In this document: positions 51,332-54,248 of the stretch, one piece after another
How positions within the stretch are numbered: position 1 is the stretch's first letter
How the letters are laid out: each line of letters starts with the position of its first letter
Assembly: GCF_003208215.1 (NCBI RefSeq)
Contig: NZ_QKLW01000002.1
Location: forward strand, 563,671-627,670
Length of the DNA: 64,000 nt
DNA from: Marinomonas alcarazii
Lineage (GTDB): Bacteria > Pseudomonadota > Gammaproteobacteria > Pseudomonadales > Marinomonadaceae
Reading direction: 5' to 3'
Position numbers and translations under genes: made by a program
Notes under the pieces: model-generated
What the model was told of the DNA's origin: nothing
The model's input: the letters and a program-made list of their open reading frames with translations, nothing else
The model's database searches: none

Positions 51332-52543
51332 CTAAGCGACTTCATCCCATTCTGGGAAAGGATCAGGCAAAGCAGCCCAGGCATTTTTTCCAGCCAGTAG
51401 CTCTTGGTCGCTTAATAAGCAGCGGTCTAATGCTTCTATTACAGCCTCTTTATTCAAGTTCTGACCAATAAACACCAGCTCTTGTCGCATATCTCCAAAA
51501 GGTTCGACCCATTGCTCTGCTATCGACTCAAGGTATTCTGGGTCTTGTGGCCATTTGTCTTTGGGTACCGCCTTCCAAAACATACCAGCAAAACCATAAT
51601 GCGCAATGCCACCGGCTTGGCTCCATTGACCAGCAAACTCGGGGCGGGTCGCTAGCCAAAAAAAGCCTTTTGAACGTAGCAGTTTTCCATACGCTTCTGT
51701 TCCATGAAGAAAATCATAAAAGCGCTGAGGATGAAAAGGTCGTCGAGCCAAATAGGAAAAACTGCCAATGCCATATTCTTCCGTTTCTGGCACATGCTCA
51801 CCACGCATTTCTTTTAGCCAACCCGCCGCTTGTTGCGCTTTTTCAAAGCTAAATTTACCTGTGCCTAGCAAGCGTTTCGGCTCTATTTTGCCTCGATAAA
51901 TAGGAATAATTTCCGCTTCTGTATTAAAACTACGCAGGATGGATTCAAGCTGTCGTAACTCCGCCTCATTCACCAAATCGGTTTTACTGATCAAGATAAC
52001 ATCAGCAAACTCGACTTGATCGATCAATAAATCCGCCACGCTGCGTTCATCCTCTTCACCAAGAGACTCCCCCGTTTCCTGCAGCGAGATAGCAGCGTCA
52101 TAGTCTTTCATGAAATTCACGGCGTCAACGACAGTTACCATGGTATCAAGGCGAGCAATATCCGATAAACTCACACCGTCTTCGTCGGCAAAAGTAAAGG
52201 TTTCCGCAACGGGCAAGGGCTCGGAAATACCGGTTGATTCAATAACCAAATAGTCAAAGCTATTGTCCTCGGCAAGCTTTCTAACCTCAATCAACAAGTC
52301 TTCTCGCAACGTGCAGCAGATGCAGCCATTGCTCATTTCAACGAGCTTTTCCTCGCTACGATTTAGCGACACTTCTTGCTTAATTGTCGCCGCATCAATA
52401 TTGATCTCACTCATATCATTCACAATCACCGCGACTCTCAAGCCATCGCGATTATTGAGTATATGGCTTAAAACGGTCGTTTTTCCCGCGCCTAAAAAAC
52501 CAGATAATACCGTCACCGGTAATTTACTCTGCACACTGTCCAT
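51332..52543 (-). CDS. zigA: zinc metallochaperone GTPase, COG0523/ZigA family
   Basis: 403 residues from the ATG at 52543 (GGGAGAG upstream); the frame is open 15 codons further, but that part falls in the palindrome. G3E GTPase marks: Walker A GFLGAGKTT (15-23), the metal-binding GCICC (Cys74, Cys76, Cys77), and the ESTGISEP and SKTDLV segments. A C-terminal CobW domain (about 270-395) follows. The family feeds zinc or other metals to client enzymes when zinc is short. A Zur-like palindrome directly upstream supports zinc-starvation induction. It lies beside a delta-class carbonic anhydrase gene, a plausible client. Confidence 0.9.
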   Translation of the reverse strand: MDSVQSKLPVTVLSGFLGAGKTTVLSHILNNRDGLRVAVIVNDMSEINIDAATIKQEVSLNRSEEKLVEMSNGCICCTLREDLLIEVRKLAEDNSFDYLVIESTGISEPLPVAETFTFADEDGVSLSDIARLDTMVTVVDAVNFMKDYDAAISLQETGESLGEEDERSVADLLIDQVEFADVILISKTDLVNEAELRQLESILRSFNTEAEIIPIYRGKIEPKRLLGTGKFSFEKAQQAAGWLKEMRGEHVPETEEYGIGSFSYLARRPFHPQRFYDFLHGTEAYGKLLRSKGFFWLATRPEFAGQWSQAGGIAHYGFAGMFWKAVPKDKWPQDPEYLESIAEQWVEPFGDMRQELVFIGQNLNKEAVIEALDRCLLSDQELLAGKNAWAALPDPFPEWDEVA

Positions 52544-52560
52544 AAATCTCTCCCACAAGA

Positions 52561-52599
52561 ATCTGCATGAAATGTTATGATATAACATTCCATGCAGAT
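52561..52599 (-). promoter_or_regulatory. 39-bp near-perfect palindrome containing a Zur-box-like core
   Basis: Left arm ATCTGCATGAAATGTTAT (52561-52578) and right arm ATAACATTCCATGCAGAT (52582-52599) are reverse complements at 17 of 18 positions around the centre GAT. The inner part, GAAATGTTAT-GA-TATAACATTCC, closely matches the gammaproteobacterial Zur consensus. It lies 18 bp upstream of the zigA start codon, where a bound repressor would block transcription. The extended outer arms exceed the normal box. Function is inferred from the match. Confidence 0.8.
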
Positions 52600-52632
52600 T
52601 AAACAGAAATGAAAAGTGCTAAATACCGCCAA

Positions 52633-53493
52633 TTAATCCGCAGTATTGGAAAGTAAATCTGGATTGGTTATTAGATTTCTCACACCATGAGCATGATCTT
52701 CTTTATAGATGTTTTCGCTATCGCACCACACCCCTACTGAATGAATATCAACCTTCGTCACTCTGGGTCGAACATTCCATGTCACTTCAAAAGGTGAGGC
52801 TTTTTCATTGTAGTCTGGGCCTGTTGTGGAGCCTGCATAAGTAACAGGATCACCAGTATCAGTAGGAATCCCCGTTGCTTGATACAAACCATCTCTTACA
52901 TCATGAGATGCCAAAGTATTAAAATTTAATGCCTTATCATCATTAACCACGACATACACTTGAGCCTCTACTCGCAACTGTGGCATGGCTTCACCCTTCA
53001 CAACACAGGCGGCTAAAGTTGGTCCAGGTTGAACTTCAGCACTGGAGTACACATAATGCACTTCGATAGTATCACCGGGAAAAAGCTCACTATGCTTCCC
53101 TTTACAAATCGCGCCAGCTTTAACAGGTTCCAATTCTCTTTGGCTTAGATTACCCGAATAGACATAACCTGTTTGAAACCCTTTTCCATCGCCATTGCCA
53201 GCATACTGAGTAAACTCTCCGCCCTTGTGCTCGGCATTTTTGTGAAAATGAATATTACACAGATTCATCTTGTTCGATGCTGGCGCTGGCGCGAACGTGT
53301 GTAGGTTACGACCAAAGATCCTATCAATATCCCGTGGAGATTGTGGCCCTACATCCAACCCTGCTGTGTTTCCTTGTAATGCTTGGCGCTGTCTTAGAAT
53401 TTCTTCATCTGACACAGCCCCTTGATTCGCGGCAAAGGCCAAACCTGACACTAAAGCTAAACCAACACCACCCATAACACTCATCACTTTCAT
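52633..53493 (-). CDS. delta-class carbonic anhydrase, secreted
   Basis: 286 residues with a cleavable signal peptide (cleavage near residue 21-22, GLAFA-ANQ), so it acts in the periplasm. The core matches the delta carbonic anhydrase set (PF10563-like): MNLCNIHFHKNAEHKGGEF with candidate metal ligands His82, His84 and His89, GDTIEVHYVYSSAEVQPGPTL with His146, and the conserved end DHAHGVRNLITNPDLLS. Cysteines 79 and 130 could form a bond. The family hydrates CO2 and some members accept cobalt or cadmium. It lies upstream of zigA on the same strand, with the Zur-like palindrome between them. Confidence 0.85.
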   Translation of the reverse strand: MKVMSVMGGVGLALVSGLAFAANQGAVSDEEILRQRQALQGNTAGLDVGPQSPRDIDRIFGRNLHTFAPAPASNKMNLCNIHFHKNAEHKGGEFTQYAGNGDGKGFQTGYVYSGNLSQRELEPVKAGAICKGKHSELFPGDTIEVHYVYSSAEVQPGPTLAACVVKGEAMPQLRVEAQVYVVVNDDKALNFNTLASHDVRDGLYQATGIPTDTGDPVTYAGSTTGPDYNEKASPFEVTWNVRPRVTKVDIHSVGVWCDSENIYKEDHAHGVRNLITNPDLLSNTAD

Positions 53494-53777: not shown

Positions 53778-54248
53778 ATGCATTTAGATTACATAGATTT
53801 GCAACTACTTGCCTTAATTCAAAGTAATGATAGTATTTCCACAGAGTCTATGGCTCAGCAAGTTGGCCTATCCAAAACCCCTTGCTGGCGACGGGTTCAA
53901 AAGCTAGAAAATGCAGGCTTTATCAAGCGCCGCGTTGCTCTCTTAGACGCAGATAAACTGGGCCTTGGCGTGTCCGTTTTTGTACAAGTGAAAACCAATC
54001 AGCACGATGCAAACTGGGCAGAAGAATTTGCTCACGTTGTGGCGCAATTCCCTGAAGTCGTGGAGTTTTACCGCATGGCTGGGGAGTACGATTATTTATT
54101 GCGAGTGCTGGTCAAAGACATCCCTGCGTATGACAAATTTTATAAACGATTAATTAGTGCCACCGCATTAACCGACGTCACCTCTAACTTCGCTATGGAA
54201 CAGATCAAGTGGACAACTCAGTTGCCCTTACCTAGTCCAATAGAGTGA
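53778..54248 (+). CDS. Lrp/AsnC family transcriptional regulator
   Basis: 156 residues. An N-terminal helix-turn-helix (about residues 15-55; MAQQVGLSKTPCWRRVQKLENAGFI) and a C-terminal RAM ligand-binding domain (about 65-150; FYRMAGEYDYLLRVLVKD) are clear. Such proteins sense amino acids and act as octamers. The class V PLP enzyme gene follows after 47 bp in the same direction, so it is the likely target. Confidence 0.9.
   Translation: MHLDYIDLQLLALIQSNDSISTESMAQQVGLSKTPCWRRVQKLENAGFIKRRVALLDADKLGLGVSVFVQVKTNQHDANWAEEFAHVVAQFPEVVEFYRMAGEYDYLLRVLVKDIPAYDKFYKRLISATALTDVTSNFAMEQIKWTTQLPLPSPIE

Follow-up and report, generated by a model that had tools for sequence, protein, structure and literature searches.

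Organization of the zigA locus

The window, as we call the whole stretch of 64,000 nucleotides that was analysed, lies on contig C2 of a Marinomonas-type genome of 3.97 Mb. On its minus strand, a gene for a delta-class carbonic anhydrase (CA; 53493-52633) is followed by a long palindrome (52600-52560) and then by zigA (52543-51332). Because the palindrome is located between the CA stop codon and the zigA start codon, it is downstream (3') of the CA gene. The locus comprises the following features:

51332..52543, minus strand: zigA, gene for a zinc metallochaperone GTPase of the COG0523 group; 403 aa, start codon ATG at 52543 (NF038288; cobW and CobW_C domains)
52571..52589, unstranded: Zur-box core AATGTTATGATATAACATT, predicted zigA operator (0 mismatches to the 19-mer)
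52560..52600, unstranded: extended palindrome around the Zur core, 19-nt arms, one mismatch (inverted-repeat search)
52601..52640, unstranded: approximate site of about 95 bp absent relative to relatives, intrinsic terminator included (alignment of seven intergenic regions)
52633..53493, minus strand: delta-class CA gene with signal peptide, most likely an independent neighbour (PF10563; no Zur box upstream)
53431..53493, minus strand: CA signal peptide, about 21 residues, AFA/AN cleavage site (read from sequence)
53778..54248, plus strand: Lrp/AsnC-type regulator gene, divergently oriented, marking a conserved border of the site (Pfam; synteny)

The first-pass annotation had described a 39-bp palindrome ahead of zigA. 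The inverted repeat itself is real and has a single mismatch; its arms (52560-52578 and 52582-52600) measure 19 nt, are 95% complementary and flank a 3-nt spacer, which gives 41 bp in total, and 16 bp separate its zigA-side end from the zigA ATG.

A Zur-type operator precedes zigA

The assignment of the downstream gene as zigA was borne out by the NF038288 ZigA model, on which the product scores 692.7 bits over residues 8-397 and thereby passes the equivalog cut-off of 600. The suggested Zur-consensus core was likewise confirmed: AATGTTATNNNATAACATT has 0 mismatches to the symmetric 19-mer used and is the sole such site in the 3.97-Mb genome.

Across the genus, 33 of 48 genomes contain a ZigA profile match over the cut-off (34 loci), and a Zur-type box was located within 250 bp upstream of the match at all 34, with at most 2 mismatches in 30 boxes and 3 or 4 in the remainder. 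We assign the box to zigA on the basis of this complete co-occurrence. A 21-mer position weight matrix (PWM) scored the 34 zigA upstream regions at a minimum of 17.5 and a median of 28.1, a control that is partly circular since 30 of the 34 zigA sites are among the 87 boxes from which the matrix was built.

In the same genome, boxes also precede a ZnuA-family gene (3 mismatches, 86 bp ahead of the profile match) and a DUF1826 gene (PF08856); in relatives, boxes stand ahead of genes for L31 type B (over cut-off) and for FolE2, the latter gene truncated by the end of the locus. All four are classical Zur targets. A second Fur-family protein (PF01475, 46.5 bits), whose gene overlaps a znuC-like ABC-ATPase gene, finds its best NCBIfam model in Zur, at 118.8 bits and below the cut-off of 167. 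The boxes and the genes behind them support a Zur-type operator ahead of a ZigA-type GTPase within a recognizable Zur regulon. Binding by Zur, repression and the position of the zigA promoter are predicted; a promoter scan of the window returned no sigma-70-like promoter on the zigA strand.

The box search yielded further sites. At C1 767966 (L069, G000 C1 766466-776000), a Zur-like box with 2 mismatches precedes an SBP_bac_5-type ABC importer composed of a binding protein, permeases (the second recognized by eye) and a fused ATPase, a system that may import zinc or a metallophore. Several other genomes of the genus have, by eye, boxes ahead of binding proteins that look similar. Directly upstream of the Zur-like gene lies a gene for a His-rich NicO-family transporter (PF03824; L294, G000 C3, 431-2681). 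Similar-looking NicO-type genes in G008 and G019 have a Zur-like box (L262 and L291), with 19-nt arms in L262.

The delta-class carbonic anhydrase

The CA gene encodes 286 aa, and its product scores 253.5 bits on PF10563 (cut-off 26.3), a family to which we take the diatom enzyme TWCA1 to belong. Its N-terminus reads as a typical Sec signal peptide, MKVMSVMGGVGLALVSGLAFA, so that the earlier description of a delta-CA with a signal peptide directly upstream of zigA on the same strand stands. Export and CO2-hydration activity are predicted from these features. H82, H84 and H146, together with H89 and H269, are invariant in 72 aligned CAs, and three of these conserved histidines would serve as metal ligands. 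As all 72 proteins keep H82, H84 and H146, there is no sign of metal-site loss among them.

The nearest named homologues belong to Marinomonas, with the M. foliarum protein at 82% identity among the matches listed. At least 530 delta-CA stretches were confirmed in one scan, of which 80 were used; delta-CA genes are common in marine gammaproteobacteria and mostly free-standing. One further delta-CA, at L023 (G014), carries one in-frame TAG within the profile match and may therefore be a pseudogene.

A sequence search of the PDB returned no delta-CA. The structure model reached a pLDDT of 84.6, and the best 50 Foldseek rows all read as alpha-CA or CA-like chains, although two titles name no CA, and the best E value was 2.6e-4 with TM scores of only 0.23-0.31. 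When the delta profile was aligned locally to 15 alpha-CAs with hhalign, GSTTGP..NE...V.W.V fell on the alpha motif GSLTTPP..E.V.W.V; the score of 33.8 exceeded all 200 column shuffles (maximum 32.2) at a probability of only 29%, and global alignment failed. The HFH and ExHxV motifs follow the same order in both classes by eye. By model and motif, the delta-CA thus looks like a remote alpha-CA.

The carbonic anhydrase gene is probably outside Zur control

The first-pass annotation had proposed a Zur-controlled zinc-sparing CO2-hydration unit, in which ZigA loads the CA or the CA replaces a zinc enzyme. Zur-regulated gamma-CAs are known (described in the cited passages of PMC2770081), and the two genes are neighbours here and in some relatives; in the open-licence literature we found no Zur-regulated delta-CA. 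The 300 bp upstream of the CA gene contained no site scoring like a Zur box in any of the 18 CA-bearing genus genomes (PWM at most 1.7; -11.0 in the window). A wider set of 80 CA loci, six of them from Marinomonas and three dropped for a short flank or a missing start, likewise contained no such box in the 77 regions scored: the best value was 10.3 (L144), compared with the zigA minimum of 17.5. Against 900 shuffles that keep base composition only (median -4.5, 99% point 8.8, maximum 16.4), a score of 10.3 is unremarkable among 77 loci. We therefore rejected a Zur box in the CA promoter, as no CA upstream region tested scores like the zigA boxes.

In five relatives, an intrinsic terminator of the form GCCCTCT-loop-AGAGGGC followed by T separates CA from zigA. 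It was flagged by the scan in G017, G024 and G038, and an imperfect version was recognized by eye in G012 and G032 (loci read directly: L024, L031 and L033); none was flagged in the CA-zigA interval of G045. Aligned with its relatives (seven intergenic regions), the window is devoid of about 95 bp that include this terminator. A stricter terminator scan of the CA/zigA strand of the window found none, and a looser one flagged only the palindrome itself, with the tail ATTCTTGT. With the separating terminator lost, read-through from CA into zigA is possible in this strain. Because the relatives have the terminator, the usual arrangement is two units, and any read-through here is probably a recent accident.

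The gene order Lrp-CA-zigA beside the divergent Lrp gene occurs in G000, G012, G017, G024, G032, G038 and G045, the pair being direct in six and interrupted by one ORF in G045. Next to that Lrp gene, G018, G031 and G039 carry zigA but no CA, and G005 and M. arctica (L100) carry CA but no zigA. Most of these loci, though not all, continue with a gene for an RND-type pump. Thus CA adjoins zigA in 7 of the 18 CA-bearing genus genomes and does not in 11, and within the flanking DNA examined, Lrp, zigA or pump neighbours were absent around 10 of these 11 genus CAs, all but that of G005.

In the 106 wider CA loci, comprising 26 order-level loci (1.5-kb flanks) and 80 genome contigs (flanks of at most 5 kb), a COG0523 neighbour was found within the flanking DNA examined at four, all among the six Marinomonas loci, and hence at none of the 100 outside the genus. 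These loci may overlap one another, and some of the Marinomonas ones repeat genus genomes. No conserved CA neighbourhood was seen outside Marinomonas: the largest neighbour cluster covered 7 of 80 loci, five of which have the Marinomonas Lrp gene. The first-pass annotation had itself named poor conservation of the pair across genomes as evidence against a joint system, and this is largely what was observed.

At the level of whole genomes, a loose link between the two genes was detected. Within the genus, zigA is present in 17 of 18 genomes with a delta-CA and in 16 of 30 without (p 0.003, kinship ignored); outside it, the figures are 8 of 15 and 32 of 125 (p 0.03, kinship ignored). No such association was seen for alpha-CA (4 of 11 versus 36 of 129, p 0.51). 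The order set behind these counts holds 140 genomes, a number deduced from numbering and counts, and zigA was called there at E <= 1e-150, with 2 of 43 below the cut-off. The co-occurrence of delta-CA and zigA would need no common mechanism if their hosts share a zinc-poor marine life style. As to the CA classes themselves, the genus genomes contain beta-CA in 48 of 48, delta-CA in 18 and alpha-CA in 2, with alpha and delta together in none; in the order, alpha-CA occurs in 18 of 293 genomes, delta-CA in 36 and both in 2, about chance level.

On balance, the zinc-sparing unit is highly improbable. Adjacency in seven genomes and co-occurrence with zigA, a trait that alpha-CA does not share, speak for it; against it stand the lack of a comparable Zur box upstream of any CA tested, the terminators in five relatives, the occurrence of either gene alone at the Lrp site, the missing COG0523 neighbour at 102 of 106 wider loci (within the flanking DNA examined), the retained metal-site histidines in all 72 CAs and the presence of a signal peptide on the CA and its absence, by eye, from ZigA. 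The delta-CA gene is most likely a separate transcription unit outside Zur control.

Long palindrome arms recur at zigA boxes

The first-pass observation that the arms are longer than usual for a Zur box held up across the genus. Counted over positions 11-20 from the centre, pairs number 153 in the 34 zigA boxes compared with 108.7 (sd 8.5) when right flanks are swapped between genomes, and 0 of 5000 such permutations reached 153. Arm runs scoring at least 6 past position 10 were present in 9 of the 34 zigA boxes, with 0.3 expected from mispaired flanks. Arms of at least 14 nt occur in 10 of the 34, and 24 are without them. Mapped on the zigA tree, the extended arms require at least 8 changes, with 13 of 31 inner branches open. 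Positions 11-20 average 0.26-0.30 bit versus 0.87-2.0 in the core and thus have little arm sequence in common. Long arms are therefore recurrent and lineage-specific at zigA in the genus.

We also scored 57 other Zur boxes of the genus, taken from G000-G019 out of at least 61 non-zigA matches (four were left out, and some matches may be chance). Runs scoring at least 6 occurred in two of them compared with 0.34 expected, fewer than at zigA (Fisher p 0.002), and the laxer score of 5 gave a modest excess (5 of 57 versus 0.8 expected). Long arms as a general trait of Zur boxes were rejected, given a pair sum of 190 versus 180 at these boxes, which 929 of 5000 permutations reach. One non-zigA box in the sister genomes G007 and G014 (L259 and L280) has 15-nt arms with a paired G-C to A-T change (GCC...GGC versus ACC...GGT), so that joint change of the two arms is also seen away from zigA.

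Beyond the genus, no arm excess was found at 21 order-level zigA boxes (56 pairs versus 57.4), after 7 of 28 loci had been dropped for want of a box with at most 4 mismatches. One locus of another family, L199, carries a perfect palindrome with 21-nt arms before zigA in another register and scored low since the box search fixes a single register.

Origin and possible roles of the long arms

We consider it likely that the locus combines a Zur operator of zigA, an independent delta-CA gene and arm growth by template switching. When zinc is plentiful, zinc-loaded Zur would bind the palindrome over the likely promoter and repress zigA; when zinc is scarce, zigA would be made. The delta-CA would be an independent unit that by chance occupies a variable site flanked by the Lrp gene and zigA, its product probably a periplasmic zinc-type carbonic anhydrase outside Zur control. 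As for the arms, the perfect Zur core may fold back during DNA replication and promote template switching, whereby one flank would be copied as the reverse complement of the other, leaving a perfect extension past the 19-21 bp core.

Copying of one arm from the other is a signature described for template-switch mutations (in the cited passages of PMC8794818), and two pairs of relatives show a pattern of this kind. Between G010 and G021, whose zigA genes are 98.5% identical, the left flanks are identical at 4 of 10 positions and the right flanks at 8 of 10, and the G010 left flank matches the complement of the G021 right flank at 8 of 10. G032 and G017 present the mirror case: the left flank is kept at 7 of 10 and the right at 3 of 10, with the right resembling the complement of the sister's left at 6 of 10. 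In six of the eight ungapped comparisons, a one-sided copy was indistinct, as the two flanks are either both changed or both mostly preserved. The arms of G000, G012 and G032 have changed together, including a matching one-base change in length (by eye), which would also be expected from selection for pairing. A template-switch origin is nevertheless the account we favour for the arms. Growth of the arms is more pronounced at zigA than at the remaining Zur boxes, a difference for which mutation alone gives no account.

The long arms could instead act as RNA, in which case the palindrome, lying between CA and zigA, would fold into a hairpin that forms a 3' end, blocks read-through or acts as an attenuator, and would double as the Zur operator. 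As RNA, the window palindrome folds at -23.8 kcal/mol (z -8.8; 0 of 200 shuffles fold as well) and is the strongest hairpin left in the window after loss of the terminator. It is followed by a weakly T-rich tail, and the looser scan reads it as terminator-like here and in G032, whereas the stricter scan of the window does not. Comparison of G012 with G032 by eye reveals one double compensatory change and two G-T half changes; yet both genomes combine long arms with a terminator. At 5 of the 10 boxes with extended arms, the closest ORF upstream, as picked by a length heuristic, is divergent, so that no upstream transcript would pass through the hairpin there, and a terminator role for all long arms was rejected on this ground. 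Furthermore, a -10 element within the core would place the start of the zigA transcript in the right arm. We judge an RNA role unlikely, though it stays a live rival owing to the strong hairpin, the looser-scan call and the compensatory change in G012 and G032. Binding of a second Zur dimer by the arms, also raised in the first-pass annotation, has a precedent in the two dimers on the 31-bp E. coli znu site (described in the cited part of PMC6103462). However, past position 10 the arms have little sequence in common from one species to the next (averaging 0.26-0.30 bit per position), which does not suggest specific contacts, and 24 of 34 zigA boxes have no long arms; two-dimer binding is accordingly very unlikely.

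Extending the favoured template-switch origin, we tentatively suggest that perfect repressor operators seed recurrent palindrome growth. The Marinomonas zigA box would in this way have acquired arms of 14-22 nt with unrelated sequence, and a long hairpin, once formed, may be kept or co-opted, in this genome as the chief 3' hairpin of the CA-zigA interval once the terminator had gone.

Relation to known systems

The locus resembles the Zur-regulated COG0523 genes of proteobacteria (zigA/yciC), as portrayed in the cited passages of PMC2770081 and PMC6103462, in its ZigA over cut-off, in a palindromic box just before the start codon and in a regulon with ZnuA, DUF1826, L31 type B and FolE2. It differs from them in arms that reach 19 nt and in a delta-CA upstream with no sign of Zur control. 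With the Zur-regulated gamma-CA (Cam) of beta- and gamma-proteobacteria, in the cited passages of PMC2770081, it shares the proximity of a CA gene to a Zur box and to a COG0523 gene; here, however, the CA is of the delta class and has a signal peptide, and the box lies 3' of the gene, with no comparable box upstream. TWCA1 of Thalassiosira weissflogii (cited part of PMC4730368) is likewise of the delta class and of the three-histidine zinc class, and cobalt can replace zinc in this diatom enzyme in vivo (same source). The CA described here, a predicted enzyme, is in contrast bacterial, carries a signal peptide and has 286 aa.

Template switching and quasipalindrome correction, as depicted in the cited passages of PMC8794818 (see also PMC7202029), similarly produce one-step perfect repeats by arm copying and paired multi-base changes. 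What distinguishes the present case is that a repressor operator would have seeded such repeats again and again within one genus, and at a single gene. In the open-licence literature, we found no paper on repeated palindrome seeding on a repressor operator.

In summary, the locus most likely comprises an ordinary Zur operator before zigA and an independent delta-CA neighbour, and its unusual part is the recurrent growth of the arms. Neighbours on the same strand need not form one system, and the attractive pairing of CA with zigA is unsupported. The zigA boxes of Marinomonas provide a natural series of growing, co-changing operator palindromes, so that a comparison of close relatives offers a way to study how long perfect inverted repeats arise in promoters.
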